Below are positions 3-9,017 of a stretch of 49,426 bases of DNA, piece by piece; position 1 is the stretch's first letter; the number at the start of each line of letters is the position of its first letter. The notes under the pieces were generated by a model. The model searched no databases and was not told where the DNA came from. It saw nothing but the letters and a program-made list of their open reading frames with translations. The position numbers and the translations under genes were made by a program. This stretch comes from an uncultured Pseudomonadota bacterium (GTDB lineage: Bacteria; Pseudomonadota; Gammaproteobacteria; Steroidobacterales; Steroidobacteraceae), in NCBI GenBank assembly GCA_903927005.1, contig CAIYLH010000087.1:1-49426 (forward strand). Direction: 5' to 3'.

Positions 3-74
3 GGTCTGCCAGGTCACTCGCGGCTCCGATCACTGGACTATCTAACAAAAGTTGGAGCGGGCCGTGAACGATAA
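3..74 (+). CDS. 3' end of a cassette ORF (partial), reading into attC
   Basis: Only the tail of this cassette gene is present. The chosen frame reads GLPGHSRLRSLDYLTK and continues into the attC, stopping at TAA 72-74. The frame is supported by a homologous tail, LPGDSWLRSLDDLTK, in the inverted cassette at 6,727-6,981, which aligns without gaps. The family is not recognised and the upstream part lies outside the window. Confidence 0.4.
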   Translation, partial: GLPGHSRLRSLDYLTKVGAGRER

Positions 75-125
75 ATTTCCAACTACTGTGGCCGCCGAGC
101 GCGGCCGCTCAACCCTGAGTTAGCG
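41..125 (+). repeat. attC: attC site 1 (GTG subfamily)
   Basis: R'' TCTAAC and R' GTTAGCG bound complementary arms (TTGGAGCGGGCC against GGCCGCTCAA) that fold into the hairpin used by integron integrases. The loop holds an in-frame ORF, GTG 64 to TAG 123, reading VNDKFPTTVAAERGRSTLS. The next cassette starts 8 nt after the TAG. Confidence 0.92.
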
Positions 126-131
126 GGACCA

Positions 132-437
132 ATGCTCAGTTGGAGCACCTTGACAGTCGGAGAGCGGATTCAGGCTACGTGCCTGTTACTGCTCTTTAGT
201 GTCGGGCTGCTGACCTCTATCCTCAGCTCAACTTCAATTTCCGAGCGTCTCATTTACGCAAGTGCATTGCTCAGTGCCACCGCCGCAATACTCGACCCCC
301 AATTCGTACGAGCGAGGTCAATACGAGCCATTACGCTTCGATCGATGCCGAAACTCTGCCGAACGCTCGTTACCGTCGGTGGGATCTTGGGTTTTGCCGG
401 AATTGTAGGTGGCTGGCTATGGGCGAAATCGCCGTAG
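132..437 (+). CDS. Small cassette-encoded membrane protein, function unknown
   Basis: A 101-residue protein with about three hydrophobic segments (residues 15-33, 40-55 and 80-97), so probably an inner-membrane protein. No family is recognised. The ATG lies 8 nt after the TAG that closes the attC 1 micro-ORF, and no Shine-Dalgarno sequence is present between them. Translation may therefore depend on ribosomes arriving from the attC frame. The stop at 435-437 is just upstream of attC 2. It is the only gene of its cassette. Confidence 0.6.
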   Translation: MLSWSTLTVGERIQATCLLLLFSVGLLTSILSSTSISERLIYASALLSATAAILDPQFVRARSIRAITLRSMPKLCRTLVTVGGILGFAGIVGGWLWAKSP

Positions 438-444
438 CGCGTCC

Positions 445-530
445 CTCTAACAAAGACTGGAGCGTGCCGGTATGGATAAAGTGCCAATGACCGTGGCCGT
501 CGCGCGCGGCCGCTCAGTCCTGAGTTAGAC
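445..530 (+). repeat. attC: attC site 2 (ATG subfamily)
   Basis: R'' CTCTAAC and R' GTTAGAC bound the palindromic arms. The embedded frame runs ATG 472 to TAG 528 (MDKVPMTVAVARGRSVLS), with GGAG 9 nt before the ATG. Confidence 0.92.
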
Positions 531-537
531 GCAAGAA

Positions 538-918
538 ATGCGCTATCCCTTTATAGCTGCCGCGGCACTGCTCATCTGCGGATGTAGCGCTCCAGAAATG
601 CGGCAGCCTTCGGACGGCGCTTGGACGAGAGTCCCGTGGGCGGCGGGCTGCCTCTCCCATTCCGGAACTAGAGAGCAGCCTGCCAACCTGAATATTGTGC
701 TTACTGACGCTCTCAAAGCAGAACTGCTGGGAAAGGTTAAAAGTCTCGAACTCGAGCCAAATTTCTGCTGGTACGAAACGCCAACGGGTGATGTGATGCT
801 GCACGCCGGACCCGACTGCGGGCTCTCGCAAATCGTCAACTTTAGCCGCAGTGCCGGCAGTTGGGATGTCACTAACGTCAGTAGAGACTTCGCCCAATGC
901 GAGCTACACGTCCGGTAG
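538..918 (+). CDS. Putative cassette-encoded lipoprotein, function unknown
   Basis: A 126-residue protein that starts MRYPFIAAAALLICGCSAP. This is a short basic n-region, a hydrophobic stretch and a lipobox-like ICGC, so Cys16 is the likely lipidated residue. The mature part has two further cysteines (WAAGCLS and FCWYE) plus one near CELHVR. No domain is recognised. The ATG is 9 nt after the attC 2 TAG and lacks a clear ribosome-binding site. The stop precedes attC 3 by a few bases. Confidence 0.6.
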   Translation: MRYPFIAAAALLICGCSAPEMRQPSDGAWTRVPWAAGCLSHSGTREQPANLNIVLTDALKAELLGKVKSLELEPNFCWYETPTGDVMLHAGPDCGLSQIVNFSRSAGSWDVTNVSRDFAQCELHVR

Positions 919-924
919 GGCTGC

Positions 925-1010
925 GTCTAACAAAATTTGGAGCGGGCCGGTATGGATAAACTGCCTCTTCCCTCGGCCGCCGCGCGCGGCCGCTCAACCC
1001 TGAGTTAGGC
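925..1010 (+). repeat. attC: attC site 3 (ATG subfamily)
   Basis: R'' GTCTAAC and R' GTTAGGC with the family arms. Micro-ORF ATG 952 to TAG 1008 reads MDKLPLPSAAARGRSTLS. Confidence 0.92.
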
Positions 1011-1036
1011 GACCAGCGCACTTCGGAGGCACCATT

Positions 1037-1537
1037 GTGAAAAAGAAGGGAGGCCCCGGCACATTCAGCGGCACGCTCGCCGAGATTCGAGACGGAAAGT
1101 ATCTTGCGAACGCTCGCAATAGGTCGTCCCGAAGAAAGAGCAAATGGAACCTGCTACTGCCACTAGTCATCTTTCCGATATGGATCCTATTGTGGTGGGT
1201 AATGATTGAATTTGGGTGCTTGGCGAGCTTTCTGCTCCACGGGACTGCGGTGCCGGCTATTGGTGAGTGGATGAAGATTCTCGGTCCCGGGCCGATGACA
1301 CTTGGAGGGGCGCTAATAGCACTGCCGCCGTTCGTGCCGACGATGACAGCGGCGATGGTGATTGGAAACTTTCTTGTCTACCTGATACCTCCAGCTCGCC
1401 GAGCCATGGATGCCGAGGATCAGGGATTTCCCGGAACGGAGTACGCGACCGCCCAGTCCTCACTCGGACGCGCAACCGTCTATACGGCGCCGGTCGTCCT
1501 GTTCTTGTCTCTCCTAGGAGCATGGCTCATTGGTTAA
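1037..1537 (+). CDS. Cassette-encoded integral membrane protein, function unknown
   Basis: A 166-residue protein with a basic N-terminus (KKKGG, then RNRSSRRKSK) and about four hydrophobic segments (residues 38-68, 88-122 and 148-165). GTG 1037 is chosen because GGAGG at 1025-1029 is well spaced from it, unlike most neighbouring cassette genes. It lies 28 nt after the attC 3 TAG, so it need not rely on coupling to it. No family is recognised. About 44 non-coding bases separate its stop from attC 4. Confidence 0.6.
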   Translation: MKKKGGPGTFSGTLAEIRDGKYLANARNRSSRRKSKWNLLLPLVIFPIWILLWWVMIEFGCLASFLLHGTAVPAIGEWMKILGPGPMTLGGALIALPPFVPTMTAAMVIGNFLVYLIPPARRAMDAEDQGFPGTEYATAQSSLGRATVYTAPVVLFLSLLGAWLIG

Positions 1538-1581
1538 GAACCACCCGAACCTCCGGTACTGGCCCAACAGGCAATGTGCTC

Positions 1582-1667
1582 GCCTAACAAAAGTTGGAGC
1601 GGGCCGGGATGGATAAACTGCCCTTGAATATGGTCGCTGCGCGCGGCCGCTCAAGCCTGAGTTAGGC
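1582..1667 (+). repeat. attC: attC site 4 (ATG subfamily)
   Basis: R'' GCCTAAC and R' GTTAGGC are fully complementary. Micro-ORF ATG 1609 to TAG 1665 reads MDKLPLNMVAARGRSSLS. Confidence 0.92.
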
Positions 1668-1675
1668 GACCCAAG

Positions 1676-2128
1676 ATGCGCTTCCGATTGCTCAAGATCT
1701 TGGCTGCGGTCGCGCTCGCAGCGACCGCAATCACGATCGGGGCAGCGAACTACCTTGCCCGAAATCAGAAGCCTCAGCCGCTCGCGGTCGCGCTCCTCAT
1801 TACCGGGGACGACGGGCTGACGAATAGGTTTCGGGATGCGCTGGAGCACGCGCTGCGTACGGATCCGCGCTTTGAGATGGCACGTGCGGGCGCAGCCTAC
1901 GATCTACAAATGCGAATCCCAACGAACCTGCAACCTATAGCCGTAGGTGACCATTCTGGAATTCAAGTGCTGGTGACATTTGCAGACCACAGCGGCAAGC
2001 AATTCGGCTCCAGCGACCGAAGCTGCGTTGAGGAGGAGATGGCATCTTGTGCCGAGGGGGTGCTTGCCGACGCGAGACAGCTGTTGGCGGCTCGCCTAAC
2101 AAAACTTGGAGCGGGCCGGGATGGATAA
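1676..2128 (+). CDS. Cassette-encoded secreted or membrane-anchored protein with attC-encoded tail
   Basis: A 150-residue protein. Residues 1-26 form a basic-then-hydrophobic signal peptide or anchor (MRFRLLKILAAVALAAT onward). The rest is soluble and contains the pair SSDRSC and MASC. The reading frame crosses the R'' box of attC 5 and ends inside it, adding LTKLGAGRDG encoded by the recombination site. The start lies 10 nt after the attC 4 TAG without a convincing ribosome-binding site. No family is recognised. Confidence 0.6.
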   Translation: MRFRLLKILAAVALAATAITIGAANYLARNQKPQPLAVALLITGDDGLTNRFRDALEHALRTDPRFEMARAGAAYDLQMRIPTNLQPIAVGDHSGIQVLVTFADHSGKQFGSSDRSCVEEEMASCAEGVLADARQLLAARLTKLGAGRDG

Positions 2129-2179
2129 ACTGCCTTGGTATGTGGGCGCCCCGCGCGGCCGCTCAAGCCTGAGTTAGGC
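2094..2179 (+). repeat. attC: attC site 5 (ATG subfamily)
   Basis: R'' GCCTAAC and R' GTTAGGC. Micro-ORF ATG 2121 to TAG 2177 reads MDKLPWYVGAPRGRSSLS. The upstream gene ends within the site. Confidence 0.92.
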
Positions 2180-2187
2180 GAACCATT

Positions 2188-2544
2188 TTGGACTCAATGA
2201 TTGAACTCTCCCTCGCGCGCCCTTTGACGGTGGGTGACACCGGCGTCACAGACGTTAACGACGTTGAGTCGGTACGGGCCTTCTGCGACCGATTTGCCGC
2301 GCGTCTCATCGAGCGTTACCTGGCGCAAGGAATGTCGTGGGAGAGCGCCGACCTAGCGATTAACCGAGTCTACGATCTCATGATCCTCAATTGCGGCAGT
2401 AGCGTCCCTCGCTTTGCCTGGGACGTGTTCCTGGCCTTCGATGGAGGTGAGTGCTCGAATCCAAAAGGTGACTCATTTACACGGCCGCACATTGAGGAGC
2501 TCGCACGTGGTGGCCCGCCTAACAAAAGTTGGAGCGTGCCGTGA
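2188..2544 (+). CDS. Small cassette-encoded soluble protein, function unknown
   Basis: Up to 118 residues. It has no signal peptide or membrane segment, so it is probably cytoplasmic. The start is either TTG 2188 (10 nt after the attC 5 TAG) or ATG 2197. The C-terminus reads into attC 6 (PPNKSWSVP) and stops at the TGA inside the site. The body is rich in acidic residues and contains FAWDVFLAFDGGEC. I do not recognise a family. Confidence 0.5.
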   Translation: MDSMIELSLARPLTVGDTGVTDVNDVESVRAFCDRFAARLIERYLAQGMSWESADLAINRVYDLMILNCGSSVPRFAWDVFLAFDGGECSNPKGDSFTRPHIEELARGGPPNKSWSVP

Positions 2545-2602
2545 ACGATAAAGTGCCGATTCCTGATGCCGCTTACCGCGGCCGCTCAACCCTGAGTTAG
2601 AC
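2517..2602 (+). repeat. attC: attC site 6 (GTG subfamily)
   Basis: R'' GCCTAAC and R' GTTAGAC. Micro-ORF GTG 2541 to TAG 2600 reads VNDKVPIPDAAYRGRSTLS, with GGAG 6 nt before the GTG. Confidence 0.92.
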
Positions 2603-2605
2603 AAA

Positions 2606-3118
2606 GTGCCCAGCGTCACGTTCTCGGCATCGATCGTATTCGTCGCGACCGTGCTCGTGGCGCTAAACGCGCTTGCGGCCGAACCTGGACCTACGCGCGC
2701 GTTTATGGCTGAACTCAATAGGCTAGAGAGTCAGGCCGAGCGATTCCGTCCGGGCCGAAGCTCGGGCCCACTCCGTGCCGACAATATTCGAGACGAGGAA
2801 GTACGCGAGCTTCAAACTGCAGCGCGAACTCTCCTGCCCGAAGCAGTCGTAAACATTGCGTCCGTAACTGCTGGGTGCCCGTGCGAGAACGGCACGGCCT
2901 GTACTGCTCAAGTCTGGATCGCGGCTGCAACCCCTCAGAAAACACAACGACTGTTGTTCTCACGCATCGATGGTGCGTGGCGTCTAGGGCCAGCGGAAGA
3001 GTGGTGGCTGAAATTTGATCACCTTCACGCATCGCAAAGAGACAACCGAAACGTAATGGACCTCCTAAACGCCGAAATGCGCCTGCTTAAGGGGATGCCC
3101 ACATGTGCGCCCAAATGA
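2606..3118 (+). CDS. Cassette-encoded exported protein, function unknown
   Basis: A 170-residue protein with a typical signal peptide (residues 1-24, cleavage predicted at ALA-AEP). The mature part has a CPC motif (TAGCPCENGTAC) that could be redox-active or metal-binding, and an aromatic stretch EEWWLKFDHLH. GTG 2606 lies 5 nt after the attC 6 TAG and has no Shine-Dalgarno. No domain is recognised. The stop is followed by about 27 bases before attC 7. Confidence 0.6.
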   Translation: MPSVTFSASIVFVATVLVALNALAAEPGPTRAFMAELNRLESQAERFRPGRSSGPLRADNIRDEEVRELQTAARTLLPEAVVNIASVTAGCPCENGTACTAQVWIAAATPQKTQRLLFSRIDGAWRLGPAEEWWLKFDHLHASQRDNRNVMDLLNAEMRLLKGMPTCAPK

Positions 3119-3145
3119 TTGCGCCTGCGGGCTAATCTCGTCTTT

Positions 3146-3231
3146 GTCTAACAAAGGATGAACCGGGCCGTGAACGATAAAGTGCCACTGACTATGGCCG
3201 TGTACCGCGGCCGGTCATCCCTGAGTTAGAC
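3146..3231 (+). repeat. attC: attC site 7 (GTG subfamily)
   Basis: R'' GTCTAAC and R' GTTAGAC. The arms are slightly diverged (GATGAACCGGGCC against GGCCGGTCATCC), with compensatory changes that keep pairing. Micro-ORF GTG 3170 to TAG 3229 reads VNDKVPLTMAVYRGRSSLS. Confidence 0.92.
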
Positions 3232-3259
3232 CGCGCACCGATGCAAGGAGCGTCGCAGC

Positions 3260-3520
3260 ATGAAGGCCAGTCTGCCGAATTTAACTAGCGTGATCACACC
3301 GGGCGCGGCAATCGTCTCAGCCGTACAGGTCCTGGCCATGGTTGTATGCGTCGCTTCATACGAGAATGCGCCGGAAAGCGCCCTTGGCTCGTTCCTGCAC
3401 GAACCAAACGGCATCACGATTGCGATCGTGACCATAGTCGCGTTCAGTGCGGTAGCCGGCGGAATACTCGGTGCTCTGGGGCACCCGATGACGCCGCCGC
3501 GCAACAAGAGCGGCGGCTAA
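3260..3520 (+). CDS. Small cassette-encoded membrane protein, function unknown
   Basis: An 86-residue protein with two predicted membrane helices (residues 13-34 and 53-76) and a basic C-terminus. The ATG is preceded by AAGGAG at 3245-3250, about 9 nt away, so it has its own ribosome-binding site; it lies 30 nt after the attC 7 TAG. The stop codon is the TAA of the attC 8 R'' box. No family is recognised. Confidence 0.55.
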   Translation: MKASLPNLTSVITPGAAIVSAVQVLAMVVCVASYENAPESALGSFLHEPNGITIAIVTIVAFSAVAGGILGALGHPMTPPRNKSGG

Positions 3521-3600
3521 CAATATTTGGAGCGGGCCGGTATGGATAAACTACCCTTGCCTATGGCCGCCGTGCGCGGCCGCTCAACCCTGAGTTAGGC
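3515..3600 (+). repeat. attC: attC site 8 (ATG subfamily)
   Basis: R'' GGCTAAC and R' GTTAGGC. Micro-ORF ATG 3542 to TAG 3598 reads MDKLPLPMAAVRGRSTLS. The preceding gene terminates on the TAA of the R'' box. Confidence 0.92.
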
Positions 3601-3610
3601 GATTCACGAA

Positions 3611-4030
3611 ATGAAGTGGCGACCCGTAGCATCATTCGTCCTACTAGCTTCTGCTTCAGGGAACACGCTCGCTGGCGACTGCCTCAAATATGAGCCAGCT
3701 AAGGTCCACCTTTCGGGAACCATAGCGCGCGAGACATTCCCAGGTCCGCCGAACTACGAAAGCGTAGCTTCCGGAGACGCCGCGGAAACAATCTGGGTGC
3801 TGCGACTTAGCAAACCCATCTGTACCGTTAGCTCTAGCTCCGACGAAATCAATGAGGCCGAAAACGACCAAAGCGAGCTGCAACTTGTTCTCGAACCGGC
3901 TCAGTACAAGAGGTATCGTGCCCTCGTCGGGCGTCGTGTAACCGCTACGGGAACGCTATTCCATGCCATCAGTGGGCATCATCACAAGACGTTGCTGCTG
4001 ACAACGGAGGCGCTCAGTGGAATCGCCTAA
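3611..4030 (+). CDS. DUF4431-type exported protein
   Basis: A 139-residue protein with a signal peptide (residues 1-21, cleavage near LAG-DC). The mature sequence carries features I associate with DUF4431 proteins: CLKYEPAKVHLSGTI, FPGPPNYESV, LRLSKPICT, and GTLFHAISGHHHKTLLL near the end. The family is probably periplasmic and its function is unknown. The start lies 12 nt after the attC 8 TAG without a ribosome-binding site. The TAA stop is the one in the attC 9 R'' box. The domain call is from memory of the family pattern. Confidence 0.7.
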   Translation: MKWRPVASFVLLASASGNTLAGDCLKYEPAKVHLSGTIARETFPGPPNYESVASGDAAETIWVLRLSKPICTVSSSSDEINEAENDQSELQLVLEPAQYKRYRALVGRRVTATGTLFHAISGHHHKTLLLTTEALSGIA

Positions 4031-4110
4031 CAAAACTTGGAGCGGGCCGGGATGAATAAACTGCCTCGGTATATGGCCGTCGCGCGCGGCCGCTCAAGCC
4101 TGAGTTAGAT
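4025..4110 (+). repeat. attC: attC site 9 (ATG subfamily)
   Basis: R'' GCCTAAC and R' GTTAGAT. Micro-ORF ATG 4052 to TAG 4108 reads MNKLPRYMAVARGRSSLS. Confidence 0.92.
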
Positions 4111-4136
4111 CTCGCGCTTCTTTAAATAGCAGCGAC

Positions 4137-4164
4137 TTGACGTACTACGGCAATGCCGTATGCT
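4137..4164 (+). promoter_or_regulatory. Candidate promoter of the HigBA-type cassette
   Basis: TTGACG (4137-4142), a 16-bp spacer and TATGCT (4159-4164) resemble a sigma70 promoter. The -10 element overlaps the annotated ATG 4153. If this promoter is used, transcription would begin near 4,171, exactly at an in-frame TTG. Confidence 0.4.
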
Positions 4165-4485
4165 CCGCAATTGTTCAGCTTTGTAGAAACCCATCTCTTC
4201 ACGAAGCTGGTGACAGACTATTTGACGGATGATGAGTACGCGGCGCTCCAGCTCGCCCTTGTCGCCCATCCAGACAGCGGCCCGGTAATCCCTGGCTCAG
4301 GCGGTATCCGGAAATTGCGCTGGGCGGCTCCTGGTAGAGGTAAGCGCGGCGGTTACCGGGTTATCTATTACGTTCGGAGGGCGAACGGCGTCATCTGGAT
4401 GCTTACGATGTATCCAAAAAACGTCGCCGAGAATATCCCGGCGCATGTGCTCAGACAGATTCGGAAGGAAGTAGACGATGGCTAA
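4153..4485 (+). CDS. HigB/RelE-type toxin
   Basis: A 110-residue protein of the RelE/HigB fold. These are ribosome-dependent mRNA interferases whose activity is blocked by a cognate HTH antitoxin. Supporting segments are FVETHLFTKLVTDYLTDDEY, the central IPGSGGIRKLRWA, the basic GRGKRGGYRVIYY and the C-terminal IWMLTMYPKN. Toxin-first order with an 8-nt overlap into the antitoxin is typical of higBA. The start is uncertain: ATG 4153 gives full length, while TTG 4171 would match the promoter candidate and the family's usual N-terminus. It has no attC-coupled start, unlike the non-TA cassettes. Confidence 0.85.
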   Translation: MPYAPQLFSFVETHLFTKLVTDYLTDDEYAALQLALVAHPDSGPVIPGSGGIRKLRWAAPGRGKRGGYRVIYYVRRANGVIWMLTMYPKNVAENIPAHVLRQIRKEVDDG

Positions 4486-4750
4486 AGTAACCCGAAACGT
4501 TGGTAAGGAAATTCTCGATGGGTTGCGCGAATTGAAGCGCGGCGAATATGGTCGGGTAACTAATCTTCCTGCGATTGCTTCGATCCGCGAAAAGACTGGT
4601 CTACCTCAAACGCGGTTCGCTGAGCTCCTCGGCGTTTCAGTACGAACGTTGCAGGATTGGGAACAGGGGCGTCGGGCTCCGTCCGGAGCTGCTCGTACGC
4701 TGCTTGTGCTGGTTGATCGCAACCCGACTGCGCTGCTCGACGTTGCCTAG
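4478..4750 (+). CDS. HigA-type HTH antitoxin
   Basis: A 90-residue protein with an Xre-type helix-turn-helix at about residues 38-75 (REKTGLPQTRFAELLGVSVR, then TLQDWEQGRRAPSG). The family neutralises the HigB toxin and represses its own operon. It overlaps the toxin gene by 8 nt, indicating translational coupling. The stop lies about 10 nt before attC 10. Confidence 0.88.
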   Translation: MAKVTRNVGKEILDGLRELKRGEYGRVTNLPAIASIREKTGLPQTRFAELLGVSVRTLQDWEQGRRAPSGAARTLLVLVDRNPTALLDVA

Positions 4751-4759
4751 TGCGTCGAG

Positions 4760-4845
4760 ATCTAACAAAGGTAGGATCGGGCCGTGAACGATAAACTGCC
4801 GGTTCCTGACGCCGCCGCGCGCGGCTGCTCAACCCTGAGTTAGAC
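4760..4845 (+). repeat. attC: attC site 10 (GTG subfamily)
   Basis: R'' ATCTAAC and R' GTTAGAC. Micro-ORF GTG 4784 to TAG 4843 reads VNDKLPVPDAAARGCSTLS. Confidence 0.92.
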
Positions 4846-4859
4846 GCAGAGCAGACGTC

Positions 4860-5408
4860 GTGCCATTCACGCCTTTCCATATGGGACTCGGTGCCGCGTT
4901 TAAGGCGCTCGCAGGAAGACGCTTTAGTCTCATCACATTCGGCGTCGCGCAAGTTGCTATGGACATCGAACCCTTAGTTCGCATGATCCGCGGCGATAGA
5001 ATCCTTCACGGCTTCACCCACACCTACATTGGCGCGGCTGTCGTGGGAGCTGGAGTTCTCATTCTGGGCAAACCACTGGCCGCCCGCCTGAATGAGCTAT
5101 GGCGCCGGGAACTGATCCGGGAAGGCGCTGCCTGGCTAGAGGAATCGGGCGGCCTCGACTCGGGACCGGCCGCGGCCGGAGCGTTCATAGGCACGCTTAG
5201 TCATGTCGCTCTCGATAGTTTGATGCACGCCGACATCCGGCCATTCGCCCCATTCTCGCAGTCAAACGACCTGCTAGGCTTAATACCGCTAGGTGAATTG
5301 CATGCGTTGTGCGTCGTCGCGGGGATTGTCGGCCTCGTAGTCTGGGGCGGCCTTCGCTATCTGCATCGCCCTGCGCCTAACAAAGGTGGGACGGGCCGTG
5401 AACGATAA
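4860..5408 (+). CDS. Membrane protein resembling metal-dependent hydrolases (MPFTPFH family)
   Basis: A 182-residue protein that starts MPFTPFHMGLGAAFKAL. Histidine/aspartate motifs (FH at 6-7, DIEPL, HGFTHTYIGA, SHVALDSLMHADIRPF) are arranged as in small membrane-bound metal-dependent hydrolase-like proteins. About three hydrophobic segments are visible (residues 55-72, 105-118 and 145-165). GTG 4860 lies 16 nt after the attC 10 TAG, and GTG is supported by the conserved N-terminus. The C-terminal PNKGGTGRER is encoded by attC 11. The fragment at 9,018-9,050 is homologous to the start of this cassette. The substrate is unknown. Confidence 0.65.
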   Translation: MPFTPFHMGLGAAFKALAGRRFSLITFGVAQVAMDIEPLVRMIRGDRILHGFTHTYIGAAVVGAGVLILGKPLAARLNELWRRELIREGAAWLEESGGLDSGPAAAGAFIGTLSHVALDSLMHADIRPFAPFSQSNDLLGLIPLGELHALCVVAGIVGLVVWGGLRYLHRPAPNKGGTGRER

Positions 5409-5459
5409 ATTTCCAGTTGCCGCGGCCGTATCTCGCGGCCGCTCAACCCTGAGTTAGAC
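5375..5459 (+). repeat. attC: attC site 11 (GTG subfamily)
   Basis: R'' GCCTAAC and R' GTTAGAC; the left arm has lost one base (GGTGGGACGGGCC). Micro-ORF GTG 5398 to TAG 5457 reads VNDKFPVAAAVSRGRSTLS. Confidence 0.9.
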
Positions 5460-5511
5460 GCGGAACAATTGGTACTGGCAGCGGGGCGCGCGTCGCGATA
5501 TATCTAGCCCC

Positions 5512-5727
5512 ATGTCATCGCTAATCTTCAGCGACGTCGAGATAATGGGAGGGACGGCCTGCCTAGCCGGGACTCGCGTCCCATTCCAAACGCTGCTCGA
5601 TTATCTTGAAGGTGGCGACTCCCTCGACCAATTCCTCTCCGACTTCCCTAGCGTCAGTCGGGAATTGGCTGTCGCTGCGCTGCATCAAGCCGGCGATCTG
5701 GCGGTCGCAAATGCGCGTGTTGCTTGA
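5512..5727 (+). CDS. DUF433-type antitoxin
   Basis: A 71-residue DUF433 protein, recognised by GGTACLAGTRVPFQTLLDYL and the DSLDQFLSDFPSVSRE helix, a winged-helix-like fold. Such proteins are commonly encoded just upstream of DUF5615 PIN-like proteins and are regarded as antitoxins. Its 3' end overlaps the next gene by 17 nt. TATATC/TATCTA at 5499-5506 lies directly upstream of ATG 5512, so a near-leaderless mRNA is possible. The -35 match is poor. Confidence 0.82.
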   Translation: MSSLIFSDVEIMGGTACLAGTRVPFQTLLDYLEGGDSLDQFLSDFPSVSRELAVAALHQAGDLAVANARVA

Positions 5728-6031
5728 TGAGTGCGTCCCGAGGCGCCTGAGGACGCAACTCGCCGGCCACGACGTTCGCACTGTCCCCGAGGCCGGTTGG
5801 GCCGGCTTAAAGAGCGGGCGACTACTGGCGGCTGCTGCTGCTGAATTCGCCTGCTTCATAACGGTCGACCGAAACCTCCAGTTTCAACAGCGTCCAGGCT
5901 CGCTGCCTATGGCCGTCATTTTGCTGACCGCTCCGAACAATAAATTCGAAACGCTGCAACTGGCGATGGAGTCTGTCCGAACGGCCCTCGCAGCACTTCA
6001 GCCTGGAAGCCTCGTAGTCGTTCACGTCTAA
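5711..6031 (+). CDS. DUF5615 PIN-like toxin
   Basis: A 106-residue protein with the DUF5615/PIN-like pattern: MRVLLDECVPRRLRTQL (Asp6-Glu7), HDVRTVPEAGW in the middle, and ITVDRNLQFQQ for the second acidic cluster. The family is predicted to be a nuclease related to VapC and acts as toxin to DUF433. ATG 5711 is chosen over upstream starts because it begins the conserved core and gives a 17-nt overlap with the antitoxin. The stop is the TAA of the attC 12 R'' box. Confidence 0.82.
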   Translation: MRVLLDECVPRRLRTQLAGHDVRTVPEAGWAGLKSGRLLAAAAAEFACFITVDRNLQFQQRPGSLPMAVILLTAPNNKFETLQLAMESVRTALAALQPGSLVVVHV

Positions 6032-6099
6032 CAAAACTTGGAGCGGGCCGGTTATGGATAAAGTGCCGCCGCATATGGCCGCTCAACCCTGAGTTATCG
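6026..6099 (+). repeat. attC: attC site 12, shortened by about 13 bp
   Basis: R'' GTCTAAC is intact, but R' reads GTTATCG and the right half lacks about 13 bp between two GGCCG copies, consistent with slippage. The micro-ORF begins at ATG 6054 but is thrown out of frame (MDKVPPHMAAQP). It is the only site with such a deletion. Confidence 0.8.
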
Positions 6100-6152
6100 G
6101 TACGCAAGTGGCGACGTTGCGCTTGTCAGGGGTCGGTGCTACGGTAGTTGTT

Positions 6153-6386
6153 ATGGCTCGCCCTCTAAGTCAAATACAGGAAGAAATTCAATCGCTTAGC
6201 GCCTCCGATAAGGAGTCGCTACTGCGCTCGCTCTTGGACGAATTCGATAGGCCAGCAAACCCAGACGTCGACGCCGCGTGGCTGCAGGAAGCACAACGGC
6301 GGAGTCGAGAGATCGACGACGGAACGGTTAGGTGCGTCCCTGCCGATGAGGTATTCGCGCGCATCGAGGACTCTCTGAAGAGATGA
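6153..6386 (+). CDS. Addiction-module antitoxin (TIGR02574-like)
   Basis: A 77-residue protein beginning MARPLSQIQEEIQSLSASDK, with a helical segment and the AWLQEAQRRSREIDDGTVRC and VFARIEDSLKR blocks seen in the putative addiction-module component family (TIGR02574). Such proteins partner with ParE/RelE toxins. ATG 6153 is chosen over upstream in-frame GTG/ATG codons because the family motif begins there. The stop overlaps the toxin start as ATGA (6383-6386). The family also makes this the probable repressor of the operon. Confidence 0.8.
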   Translation: MARPLSQIQEEIQSLSASDKESLLRSLLDEFDRPANPDVDAAWLQEAQRRSREIDDGTVRCVPADEVFARIEDSLKR

Positions 6387-6674
6387 CGCCCGAGTTTCAC
6401 CCCGAAGCCCAGAAGGAACTGGCCGCGGCTGTGAAGACTGGAATAGAGCGGTCACCTGATCTCGGTCGCGAACTTCTTGCCGAAGTGCGTCGGGTCGTAT
6501 CCATTACTCTGCGAAATGCCGCAACTCGGTGGACGCCTCGATTCGCAGCATCGACGCTTTCCGCTGACGAGATTTCCGTTCGGAGTCATATTTCGGGTTG
6601 ACGGCGATCTGCTACGAGTCGTGGCCATCGCGCACCGTCGGCAACGACCGGGTTACTGGTCGTCGCGCACGTGA
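6383..6674 (+). pseudogene. ParE/RelE-type toxin, frameshifted
   Basis: The first frame (from ATG 6383) encodes [20 protein letters not shown] and [12 protein letters not shown], the usual N-terminal half of ParE/RelE toxins. The expected second half ([40 protein letters not shown]) is present but in the +1 frame, ending at 6674. The junction is near 6,500-6,510, so one base was gained or two lost. The product should be non-functional unless frameshifting or a sequencing error is involved. The antitoxin upstream is intact. Confidence 0.8.
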
Positions 6675-6675
6675 C

Positions 6676-6761
6676 CTCTAACTCAGGGTTGAGCGGCCGC
6701 GCGCGACGGCCACAGTAGTGGGCACTTTATCCATACCGGCACGCTCCAAGCTTTGTTAGAT
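6676..6761 (-). repeat. attC: attC site 13, inverted
   Basis: A complete attC read on the minus strand: R'' ATCTAAC at 6761-6755 and R' GTTAGAG at 6682-6676. Micro-ORF 6734-6678 (minus) reads MDKVPTTVAVARGRSTLS and is intact. It is the only reversed site in the array and directly abuts the broken toxin gene. Confidence 0.92.
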
Positions 6762-6981
6762 CGTCCAGTGATCGGAGCCACGAGTCACCTGGCAGACGGC
6801 GCGCGGCACGACGGCCGCGGAACAGCGATGCCAGTCGGCCTACATCGAGCGAAGCCGCCCTACTACCTAGCCGAATGGTTGTGGTCGGCGGAACCATGCA
6901 CCTCTCCGTGTGCAACTCGGCCCAATCGAAGCGCTCCCATCGTCGGCCCGGCCCTGCGATTCCGTCAAGCCCGGCGCGATC
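6727..6981 (-). pseudogene. Remnant gene of the inverted cassette
   Basis: The minus-strand frame is open from 6981 down to TAA 6727-6729 and ends in LPGDSWLRSLDDLTK followed by attC-encoded residues. Its last 15 codons match the tail of the cassette cut by the left window edge (3-74). No good start codon with a ribosome-binding site is seen; TTG 6915 and ATG 6897 are possible. The gene is probably 5'-truncated by the rearrangement that inverted it. The rest of the interval 6,762-7,007 holds nothing else recognisable. Confidence 0.35.
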
Positions 6982-7007
6982 TCACTACCGAAATCCTGCC
7001 AAAGGAC

Positions 7008-7094
7008 ATCTAACAAGGATTGGAGCGGGTCGGGTATGGATAAAGTACCGACTCCTGATGCCGCCGCGTGCGGCCGCTCAAGCCTGAGTTAGCC
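7008..7094 (+). repeat. attC: attC site 14 (ATG subfamily)
   Basis: R'' ATCTAAC and R' GTTAGCC. Micro-ORF ATG 7036 to TAG 7092 reads MDKVPTPDAAACGRSSLS. Confidence 0.92.
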
Positions 7095-7122
7095 GTCATG
7101 TTGGGGCTAGTTGCGCCCGGCG

Positions 7123-7151
7123 TTGACATTCTGAATTAACGTAGCTACGAT
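7123..7151 (+). promoter_or_regulatory. Promoter of BrnTA-type cassette 1
   Basis: A consensus TTGACA (7123-7128), a 17-bp spacer and TACGAT (7146-7151). The -10 element ends 5 nt before ATG 7157, so the transcript would start at or next to the start codon. The cassette therefore need not depend on an upstream integron promoter. Confidence 0.7.
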
Positions 7152-7156
7152 AATTC

Positions 7157-7429
7157 ATGCGCATCGCTTGCGACCCTGCGAAACGTGAATGGACGTTACG
7201 GGAGCGTGGTCTGGATATGCGTCGTGCCGGCGAGGTCTTTGCCGGCCTGCACTTCACTCGTTCCGACGATCGATGCGATTACGGCGAGCCACGCTTCATT
7301 ACTGTCGGTTCGCTCGACGACCGCCTCGTCGTGTTTGTTTGGATGCCCCGGGGATCTGCCCGACGCATCATTAGCATGAGACATTGCCATGACCGTGAAG
7401 CGAAAAAGCTCGAGCCGTACCTCAGCTAA
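7157..7429 (+). CDS. brnT: BrnT-type toxin 1
   Basis: A 90-residue BrnT family protein (RelE-like fold ribonuclease toxin). Motifs: DPAKREWTLRERGLDM, then AGEVFAG, DYGEPRFITVGSLDDRLVVF and the C-terminal RRIISMRHCHDREAKK with the basic catalytic region. It is expressed from the adjacent promoter, probably on a leaderless mRNA. Its 3' end overlaps the antitoxin gene by 41 nt, as is usual in brnTA operons. Confidence 0.9.
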   Translation: MRIACDPAKREWTLRERGLDMRRAGEVFAGLHFTRSDDRCDYGEPRFITVGSLDDRLVVFVWMPRGSARRIISMRHCHDREAKKLEPYLS

Positions 7430-7664
7430 GCCAGTGGAGGCGCCGGAGATTGACGCCGCGTGGATTGCTGGCGCCGATCTGTATGACGGAACGAAACTCA
7501 TACGGCGGGGACGGCCCAAATTGGCTAATCCGAGAAAGCTCCTGTCGTTGCGACTTCCCCCGGAAATTATCGCCCGTTGGAAGGCCTCGGGTCCGGGATG
7601 GCAAACTCGAATGGCCGAGGTCCTCGAGCGCTCCATTCCGAGACGTCGGCGGTCAGACGGCTAA
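7389..7664 (+). CDS. brnA: BrnA-type antitoxin 1
   Basis: A 91-residue protein with the BrnA signature: IRRGRPKLANPRKLLSLRL (ribbon-helix-helix DNA-binding strand) and GPGWQTRMAEVLER. BrnA binds and neutralises BrnT and represses the operon. ATG 7389 lies within the toxin gene. The stop is the TAA of the attC 15 R'' box. Confidence 0.88.
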   Translation: MTVKRKSSSRTSAKPVEAPEIDAAWIAGADLYDGTKLIRRGRPKLANPRKLLSLRLPPEIIARWKASGPGWQTRMAEVLERSIPRRRRSDG

Positions 7665-7745
7665 CAAAAAGTTGGAGCGGGCCGGTATGGATAAACTGCC
7701 ATGGTATATGGCCGCCGCGCGCGGCCGCCCAACCCCGAGTTAGGC
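7659..7745 (+). repeat. attC: attC site 15 (ATG subfamily)
   Basis: R'' GGCTAAC and R' GTTAGGC. Micro-ORF ATG 7687 to TAG 7743 reads MDKLPWYMAAARGRPTPS. Confidence 0.92.
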
Positions 7746-7752
7746 GTTTCTC

Positions 7753-7780
7753 TTGACCTAACTTACGTTGTAGTTATACT
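7753..7780 (+). promoter_or_regulatory. Promoter of BrnTA-type cassette 2, with inverted repeat
   Basis: TTGACC (7753-7758), a 16-bp spacer and TATACT (7775-7780), ending 6 nt before ATG 7787; a leaderless transcript is likely. TACGT (7764-7768) and ACGTA (7783-7787) form an inverted repeat around the -10, a plausible antitoxin operator. Confidence 0.7.
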
Positions 7781-7786
7781 GTACGT

Positions 7787-8080
7787 ATGACCAGTCTGAC
7801 GTTTGAGTGGGACGAGCGAAAGAACCGCGCAAATCGAACCAAACACGGCGTTTCCTTTGAGGAAGCGCAGACGGCCTTCCTGGACGAAAACGCGCGCATC
7901 ATTCCGGATCCTGAACACTCAGCCGAGGAAGATCGCTTCATCCTCCTTGGTCTCAGCATTCGCCTTCGCGTCCTTATCGTCTGCCACTGCTTCCGGGATC
8001 CCGACAACGCGATCCGAATATTCTCCGCACGGCCAGCCGATCCCTCGGAGCGCCGCGACTACGCTAGGTGGTTAAAGTGA
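7787..8080 (+). CDS. brnT: BrnT-type toxin 2
   Basis: A 97-residue BrnT protein: FEWDERKNRANRTKHGVSFE, EEAQTAFLDENARIIPDPEH, EDRFILLGLSIRLRVLIVCH and the C-terminal IRIFSARPADPSERRDY. These match the family's substrate-binding and catalytic segments. The stop overlaps the antitoxin start as GTGA (8077-8080), indicating translational coupling. Confidence 0.92.
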   Translation: MTSLTFEWDERKNRANRTKHGVSFEEAQTAFLDENARIIPDPEHSAEEDRFILLGLSIRLRVLIVCHCFRDPDNAIRIFSARPADPSERRDYARWLK

Positions 8081-8289
8081 AGAAGACATACGATTTTTCA
8101 AAGTCCACGCCCAACCCCTACGTTCGGAAGTCAAAGCGACAGATAACGATCCGCTTAGACGGCGATACAGTGGATTACTTTAAGGCTCTTGCCGAACAGA
8201 GTGGCATCCCTTACCAAAATCTGATCAATCTCTACCTTCGTGACTGCGCGTCGACGAAGAAGTCGCTCAAAATGGCGTGGGCGTCATAA
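8077..8289 (+). CDS. BrnA/CopG-type antitoxin 2
   Basis: A 70-residue ribbon-helix-helix protein: KKTYDFSKSTPNPYVRK, RQITIRLDGDTVDYFKAL and IPYQNLINLYLRDC. It is the cognate antitoxin and probable autorepressor. GTG 8077 (MKKTYDFSK) is preferred because it overlaps the toxin stop by 4 nt and begins at the family N-terminus; GTG 8068 would add three residues. It ends just before attC 16. Confidence 0.85.
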   Translation: MKKTYDFSKSTPNPYVRKSKRQITIRLDGDTVDYFKALAEQSGIPYQNLINLYLRDCASTKKSLKMAWAS

Positions 8290-8290
8290 C

Positions 8291-8376
8291 GTCTAACAAA
8301 GCTTGGAACGGGCCGGTATGGATAAAGTGCCAAGTACTGTGGCCGTCGCGCGCGGCCGCCCAGCCCTGAGTTAGCG
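8291..8376 (+). repeat. attC: attC site 16 (ATG subfamily)
   Basis: R'' GTCTAAC and R' GTTAGCG. Micro-ORF ATG 8318 to TAG 8374 reads MDKVPSTVAVARGRPALS. Confidence 0.92.
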
Positions 8377-8388
8377 ATTTCCGACACG

Positions 8389-8430
8389 CCATACCTAAGT
8401 ATGGCAAAATCCCCATACCAGAGGTAGTAT
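8389..8430 (+). promoter_or_regulatory. Operator/promoter region of BrnTA-type cassette 3
   Basis: A perfect palindrome CCATAC-CTAA-GTATGG (8389-8404) is followed by a third CCATAC half-site (8413-8418) and TAGTAT (8425-8430), which ends 7 nt before ATG 8438. The symmetry suits binding of a dimeric ribbon-helix-helix antitoxin. No good -35 is seen. Confidence 0.55.
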
Positions 8431-8437
8431 CCGTGCC

Positions 8438-8725
8438 ATGGCTGCTTCGTTTGAGTGGGATCCCGCCAAGGCTACGGCCAATCTCACGAAGCACGGCGTT
8501 TCCTTCTCAGAGGCGCAGCTCGCATTTTTCGACTCCCGACGCGTGATGGCCCGGGACCAGCGGCACAGTCGCACGGAGCTGCGCTTCTACTGCTTTGGGA
8601 AGGTAGGGGACGGAATCATGACCGTGCGCTTTACCTACCGAGACGAGGTGATTCGAATAATTGGCGCTGGCTATTGGCGACAAGGGAAGAAGATCTATGA
8701 AGCGCAAAATCAAATACACGAGTGA
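8438..8725 (+). CDS. brnT: BrnT-type toxin 3
   Basis: A 95-residue BrnT protein: FEWDPAKATANLTKHGVSFS, AQLAFFDSRRVMARDQRHS, ELRFYCFGKVGDGIMTVRF and VIRIIGAGYWRQGKKIYE. It is similar to toxin 2 in the N-terminal half but clearly diverged, so the two are not a recent duplication. It overlaps the antitoxin gene by 29 nt. Confidence 0.9.
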   Translation: MAASFEWDPAKATANLTKHGVSFSEAQLAFFDSRRVMARDQRHSRTELRFYCFGKVGDGIMTVRFTYRDEVIRIIGAGYWRQGKKIYEAQNQIHE

Positions 8726-8966
8726 GCCCCTAGGTCGAGTCGAAGTCGTAGCGGACTTCCTGCCGTCCCCAGATCAGCTCGTCCTGAACGACGACGGTGT
8801 CAAAGTAACGATCTCCCTGAGCAAGCGCAGCGTCGATTTCTTCAAAGCCCAGGCCGATCGTTCGAATACCTCGTATCAGCGAATGATTCGTCGTCTCCTC
8901 GACACCTATGCCGACCACTACACCGGGAAATCTCTAACAAAAGTTGGAGCGGGCCGAGATCGATAA
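8697..8966 (+). CDS. CopG/BrnA-type antitoxin 3 with attC-encoded tail
   Basis: An 89-residue ribbon-helix-helix protein: the basic start MKRKIKYTSEPLGRVEVV, then DDGVKVTISLSKRSVDFFKA and TSYQRMIRRLLDTY. ATG 8697 is chosen because upstream starts lie deep in the toxin. The frame crosses attC 17 and stops inside it, adding LTKVGAGRDR. Probable cognate antitoxin of toxin 3. Confidence 0.83.
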   Translation: MKRKIKYTSEPLGRVEVVADFLPSPDQLVLNDDGVKVTISLSKRSVDFFKAQADRSNTSYQRMIRRLLDTYADHYTGKSLTKVGAGRDR

Positions 8967-9017
8967 AGTGCCCTGCTATATGGCCATCGCGCGCGGCCGC
9001 CCAGCCCTGAGTTAGAC
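8932..9017 (+). repeat. attC: attC site 17 (last; micro-ORF start lost)
   Basis: R'' CTCTAAC and R' GTTAGAC. The reading frame is open to TAG 9013-9015 (DKVPCYMAIARGRPALS), but the start codon position reads ATC (8959-8961). It is the most distal site of the array. Confidence 0.9.

Follow-up and report, generated by a model that had tools for sequence, protein, structure and literature searches.

The attC recombination sites of an integron cassette array in an uncultured bacterium of the family Steroidobacteraceae carry a short open reading frame (micro-ORF) that opens with ATG or GTG and closes at a TAG within the R' box of the site itself. The array lies at the start of a stretch of 49,426 nucleotides (nt) (GenBank assembly GCA_903927005.1, contig CAIYLH010000087.1, positions 1 to 49,426), which we refer to as the window. 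Comparison with attCs from related genomes gives us high confidence that this reading frame is under selection, and we favor, with less assurance and on sequence grounds, the reading that the micro-ORF acts as a short translated leader that would be kept for ribosome passage and not for its peptide.

The start of the window falls inside the cassette array, and 17 attC sites occupy positions 42-9015, 16 on the plus strand and one on the minus strand (6678-6759). R'' and R' boxes (CTAAC ... GTTAG), paired L'' and L' boxes and the extra base in L'' are all present. When the bottom-strand DNA of four sites was folded, three formed the R/L hairpin at minimum energy and the fourth formed it in its centroid structure; the DNA fold of window positions 921-1016 was no better than that of shuffled sequences (z 0.45), a result that counts against the hairpin. 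An IntI scoring above the TIGR02249 cut-off is encoded on another contig of the same genome (G000:C129:92239-93174), which ends shortly after an attI-like GATGTTAG core and part of a first cassette and is not joined to the window contig. The boxes, the predicted hairpin, and the presence of integrase and attI in the same genome all point to the window sites being integron attC sites.

A preliminary description of the window had reported an ATG or GTG frame closing at the R' TAG in 15 of the 17 attCs, the inverted one included, with a constant length of 18 or 19 codons, and both statements held. In 16 of 17 sites no stop interrupts the loop in the frame of the R' TAG (aGTTAG); the start codon is ATG in ten (18 codons) and GTG in five (19 codons). 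ATG micro-ORFs (given in brackets after each site, R'' to R') are found on the plus strand in attC 2, 447-528 (472-528); attC 3, 927-1008 (952-1008); attC 4, 1584-1665 (1609-1665); attC 5, 2096-2177 (2121-2177); attC 8, 3517-3598 (3542-3598); attC 9, 4027-4108 (4052-4108); attC 14, 7010-7092 (7036-7092); attC 15, 7661-7743 (7687-7743); and attC 16, 8293-8374 (8318-8374), and on the minus strand in the inverted attC 13, 6678-6759 (6734 down to 6678). GTG micro-ORFs, all on the plus strand, are those of attC 1, 42-123 (64-123); attC 6, 2519-2600 (2541-2600); attC 7, 3148-3229 (3170-3229); attC 10, 4762-4843 (4784-4843); and attC 11, 5377-5457 (5398-5457). The two exceptions, also on the plus strand, are attC 17 (8934-9015), in which GAG-ATC precedes GATAAA so that the frame is open and the start lost, and the decayed attC 12 (6028-6097), in which a 13-nt loop deletion, one inserted base and an R' box reading TTAT leave no in-frame micro-ORF. 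One-base length differences in attC 11 (one base shorter), attCs 14 and 15 (one extra base each) and attC 12 all lie upstream of the start, and the deletion in attC 12 is the sole length change downstream of a start among the window sites.

Two details of the earlier account needed revision. An exact GGAG lies upstream of the start, at a spacing of 6, 9 or 10 nt, in 11 of the 15 micro-ORFs and not in all of them, as had been stated for spacings of 6-10 nt; attCs 7, 10, 11 and 16 have other letters there. The GATAAA-S-TGCC stretch, described as unpaired, is probably not wholly so, because, as read from the sequence, its GCC could form pairs with a GGC that precedes L'. Upstream, the same frame is closed in the 82-nt sites by the R'' TAA (cTAAc), and the micro-ORF is therefore separate from the cassette gene.

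Within the genus, a covariance model built from 16 of the 17 window attCs gave matches in 9 of 15 genomes, and within the family in 53 of 200, each count including the genome of the window. The window plus 40 fetched stretches gave 168 matches; GTG-NNN-GATAAA-GTGC is common to many of the loops despite differing stems and lengths. A second finder, which uses the R and L boxes only, returned 240 candidates, from which two of loci L144 and L163 and 32 ambiguous ones were removed to leave 206 oriented attCs. Eleven of these are from the window, where the finder missed five of the 17 sites and a sixth was ambiguous; the largest shares come from genomes G024 (41) and G010 (23), and 19 come from seven loci of a scan of named genomes (L156, L179, L183, L194, L195, L205 and L214). 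As controls we used 40 stretches that adjoin an integron integrase in other gammaproteobacteria, oriented by the integrase; 23 of these stretches yielded 89 candidates. The exact-pattern scan of named genomes (at least 119 stretches) gave mostly chance matches: among the matches listed (126), 26 had paired arms, 21 in phase with the TAG and five not, and the remaining 100, without paired arms, split 27/46/27 over the phases. An exact pattern with GATAAAGTGC was found in one of 369 class-level genomes, the window's own, and was absent from the few other members of the family and order that the sample included; no match of attC 927-1008 occurred in 72,556 plasmid records.

Of the 206 oriented attCs, 198 have the R' frame open from roughly position 22 onward, as against 33 and 48 for the other two frames; the corresponding figures for the 89 controls are 56, and 33 and 51. 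GTTAG ends 189 of the 206 sites and 41 of the 89 controls, and when only these are considered the three frames are open in 182, 28 and 43 of 189 sites and in 25, 13 and 24 of 41 controls. Any contrast with the other two frames is to some degree inherent, since the motif contributes a TGA and a TAA to them. Tests of phase and of stops are independent of these two triplets. A complete ORF, from the first start to the TAG, is present in 160 of the 189 GTTAG-ended sites and in 2 of the 41 controls. A first ATG or GTG stands at positions 18-47 in 189 of the 206 sites, where 176 are in phase, and in 28 of the 89 controls, where 9 are in phase; 17 sites and 61 controls have no such codon. Clustering at 90, 80, 70 and 60% identity leaves in-phase first starts at 100/109, 36/43, 13/16 and 2/2 among the sites and at 9/28, 7/26, 6/21 and 1/6 among the controls. 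Together with the GGAG of 11 of the 15 window micro-ORFs, the GTTAG end gives the anatomy of a leader ORF, with a Shine-Dalgarno (SD) sequence, a start codon and a stop at the TAG of the GTTAG core.

Two further groups of attCs were seen alongside these. At L195 (182-4265), a different family of 86-nt attCs has the R' frame open, with a start only in some copies and a shifted phase in others. At L257 and L258, both of genome G179, attCs of 84-122 nt lack the GATAAA motif and mostly run from GTG to TAG in phase; among the six oriented attCs of G179, one has a stop and one a frameshift.

The loops are depleted of stops in the micro-ORF frame. Downstream of the motif, 173 loops hold a single in-frame stop, compared with a mean of 17.5 in dinucleotide shuffles (0 of 500 shuffles as low), and 23 and 14 stops in frames +1 and +2. 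With one site per 90% cluster (101 loops) there is one stop against 11.9 (0 of 500 as low), and with one per 80% cluster (40 loops) one against 5.6 (6 of 500 as low). Starts, too, appear to be maintained. The motif is held by 156 sites, 152 of them in phase, and 129 have a start at -6, three of these also at -3; among the 27 with no start at -6, 14 have one at -3, often an ATG one codon after the lost GTG (eight in the window and one each in G005, G008, G021, G024, G083 and L183). This switch from -6 to -3 is found in several attC subfamilies, and its Fisher p of 3e-10 overstates the case because the sequences are related. The motif-to-end distance is in phase in 154 of 162 motif sites, and start-to-R'-end lengths are in phase (54, 57, 60, 63, 78, 96, 99 or 108) in 151 of 200 unique sites and off phase in eight, including one mis-bounded site and three from codons judged non-homologous, the other 41 lacking a start in the range 19-28. 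Read against the sites of the window, the 83-nt attCs of G007 lack a base in the loop and have an extra one ahead of R', which preserves the frame.

Several observations weigh against the leader reading, and some of them would suit descent alone, in which the frame would be a chance feature frozen in from a single ancestral attC, with loop length hardly altered since and stops rare in GC-rich loops. One identical motif-to-end distance, attributable to shared ancestry, accounts for 122 of the 162 motif sites. The preliminary description had named stops and frameshifts at the neutral rate as the contrary sign; stops are clearly rarer than in shuffles, whereas the other, independent length classes number six in phase versus five off, a count that is not significant (the five hold only eight sites), so that the length evidence is one of site abundance and not of independent events. 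Seventeen of the 206 sites have no TAG end, 13 of the 156 motif sites have a start at neither -6 nor -3, some attCs at L195 and L266 keep the frame open with no start nearby, and the sample leans to sites like those of the window because the search model was built from ORF-bearing ones; two features of the cassette genes, given below, belong with these. The attCs of one chromosomal integron are, moreover, generally alike, as passages of Ghaly et al. (2021; PMC8352920) describe, and third codon positions in the micro-ORFs are no freer than the others. Descent alone nevertheless does not explain the frame well, and we consider it unlikely: the loops vary in sequence and still hold one in-frame stop where shuffles hold 17.5, a control array of 16 look-alike attCs (L333) has in-frame stops in many sites and a varying phase, a lost GTG is often replaced by a start one codon on, and the start-to-end lengths 63, 78, 96 and 99 are all in phase.

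If the frame is selected, the peptide does not look to be what selection sees. A signal of the dN/dS type, hoped for in the preliminary description, did not appear: codon-position entropy within the loops is lowest at the third position in all five groups, and over the full length of the ORF the third position has the lowest value in three groups, ties in G028_84 and is marginally the highest in G007_83 (0.20/0.20/0.22, five sites). The codons said to vary freely do vary, at all three of their positions. Since third positions are not freer, a peptide-coding small gene was rejected, and of the earlier idea of a fixed internal ORF across an attC family, the phase to the TAG, the avoidance of stops and the maintenance of starts in related genomes stand, while selection on the peptide does not.

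The loop motif is conserved at the nucleotide level, including the T of GAT, which a peptide would not need, and in most sites it directly follows the L'' stem. Both facts would fit a recognition element GTGNNNGATAAAGTGC, read by an integrase of the clade or a hairpin-binding protein or serving as an RNA element, with the frame as a by-product. We regard this as quite improbable. Such an element predicts neither the phase to the TAG, nor stop avoidance in the remainder of the loop, nor the switch from GTG to ATG; most G179 sites keep the frame with no motif; and in one site each of G010 (whose R' ends TTAT), G011 and G016 the GATAAA motif is out of phase and another ATG, after AGGAG-like letters, is in phase with R'. 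A promoter inside attC was also rejected: a simple sigma-70 scan of the first 9.1 kb of the window found four sites, compared with 2.8 in shuffles, all of them outside attCs.

Returning to the translated leader, the steps that we infer, namely translation itself, hairpin opening and reinitiation, would run as follows. A ribosome ending the upstream cassette gene would stop in or near R'' and restart at the GTG or ATG, mostly helped by the GGAG in the L'' box, which would otherwise be paired in the mRNA hairpin; in translating the micro-ORF it would unwind the attC hairpin in the mRNA, terminate at the TAG usually supplied by R', and reinitiate at the next cassette start a few nt on. In RNA folds of four sites, part of the GGAG is paired within the attC stem; three show this at minimum energy and the fourth shows it in its centroid structure. 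Between neighbouring oriented attCs there are 137 intervals (an interval may span a non-oriented attC), two of which hold no ORF of 60 amino acids; in the other 135 the longest cassette ORF ends before R'' in 67, at the R'' TAA in 29, between -3 and +13 relative to the start of the micro-ORF in 20, at or beyond the R' end in 13 and elsewhere in six. Among the cassette ORFs listed, those that end at the micro-ORF start mostly use the TAA of GATAAA, and some use the TGA of GTGA. Within the window, the ORFs upstream of attC 5 (1676-2128) and attC 11 (4860-5408) stop at the TAA inside GATAAA, that upstream of attC 6 (2188-2544) at a TGA overlapping GTGA, and those upstream of attC 8 (3260-3520) and attC 9 at the R'' TAA. 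The next ORF, with cassette starts set by a longest-ORF rule, begins a median of 12 nt after R' and within 15 nt in 104 of 184 cases versus 27 of 72 controls. Its own SD-like letters are present in 23 of 184 cases versus 28 of 72 controls, a depletion that is weak, as the non-cassette ORFs of the window also have such letters in only 8 of 29; this and the longest-ORF rule are the two features of the cassette genes referred to above.

The 13 cassette ORFs that end at the R' end or beyond, together with several attC subfamilies that are open from R'' on, would fit a further scheme, in which the open frame would serve cassette genes with no stop of their own, whose translation would continue across attC as far as the R' TAG and add C-terminal tails. 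Read-through tails were rejected as the sole cause and are very improbable as the explanation, given that they leave the conserved starts unaccounted for and misfit the 33 unique sites in which the R'' TAA closes the micro-ORF frame, 31 of which are nonetheless open, with first starts in phase in 30 of 32.

The common motif GTGANNGATAAA places TGA and TAA in the two other frames, and genes arriving in other phases thus end at the micro-ORF start. We tentatively suggest that attC may in this way act as a translation adaptor, in which R'' (cTAAc), GTGA and GATAAA would stop the arriving phases, the overlapping GTG or ATG would restart translation in the single frame that stays open as far as the R' TAG, and the following cassette would begin right behind. 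Any cassette, whatever its order or frame, would on this suggestion be translationally coupled to its neighbour. The combination of an all-phase stop with a restart is made less sure by ATG-type sites, which lack the TGA, and by sites that read GTGG.

A translated leader of this kind would have relatives among known integrons. Cassettes are generally promoterless, some have no ribosome-binding site of their own, and attC hairpins in the mRNA hinder ribosomes, as set out in parts of a review (PMC8876359); passages of another article (PMC4670013) likewise treat attC hairpins as barriers and ORF-11 as a helper, and those passages make no mention of an ORF in attC. The micro-ORF resembles ORF-11, ORF-17 and ORF-18 of attI1 in class 1 integrons, as portrayed in passages of both sources, in being a short ORF with its own SD sequence that overlaps a recombination site. 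In the review's passages on ORF-11, changes of amino acids had a slight effect and the ORF is proposed to load ribosomes on the next gene; its end at a TAG inside the GTTAG core and its unconstrained peptide are further points of likeness to the micro-ORF. Unlike the attI1 ORFs, which occur once, in attI, the micro-ORF recurs in almost all attCs of the array and across many attC subfamilies in related bacteria. The preliminary description knew of the attI1 ORFs and of no attC family with a fixed internal ORF; to this must be added that section 3.2 of the review, citing Jacquier et al. (2009) among others, already states that termination-reinitiation on a short ORF inside attC may relieve the hairpin, in the manner of ORF-11 in attI1. 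The mechanism proposed here is the same and is not new as an idea. What distinguishes our case from the attC ORFs of that section, which occur in mobile integrons, is a frame preserved throughout an attC lineage that has a start motif in common. The sharing of sequence and structure among the attCs of one taxon agrees with the taxon-specific attC families of chromosomal integrons in passages of Ghaly et al. (2021; PMC8352920), which differ in mentioning no reading frame within the site and in naming 11 taxa that do not include Steroidobacterales. A conserved ORF across an attC family was not found in the literature searched, which leaves out most subscription journals, and the clade-wide, frame-kept ORF looks like a new form of such an attC ORF.

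The leader reading bears on how distal cassettes are expressed in long sedentary integrons. Were it correct, a recombination site doubling as a ribosome relay would reduce the importance of cassette order and number, and constraints of DNA folding and of reading frame would be tied to the same 80-130 nt.

The cassettes of the window hold a number of genes that are toxin-antitoxin-like by Pfam: a RelE with an HTH/MqsA-like protein (4153-4750), an Unstab_antitox protein (6150-6386), a BrnT with BrnA (7157-7664) and two further BrnT proteins (7787-8080 and 8438-8725). At 5512-6031 a DUF433 protein (Pfam) is followed by an overlapping ORF, possibly as another toxin-antitoxin pair, and the ORFs at 6383-6598 and 8697-8963 have no Pfam match. 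Three of the four promoter-like sites of the sigma-70 scan (4137-4164, 7123-7151 and 7753-7780) begin 10-31 nt behind an attC and before toxin-antitoxin-like genes, with the total near the shuffled mean. In the attI-like site (L312, 13260-13406), an ATG frame of 20 codons ends at the TAG of the GTTAG core, a single case that could be due to chance. Finally, the inverted cassette at 6670-7013, which carries the minus-strand attC 6678-6759, has a homologue that stands in the usual orientation immediately after the attI-like core, where contig G000:C129 ends (L312), the two being similar, not identical, over about 138 nt.

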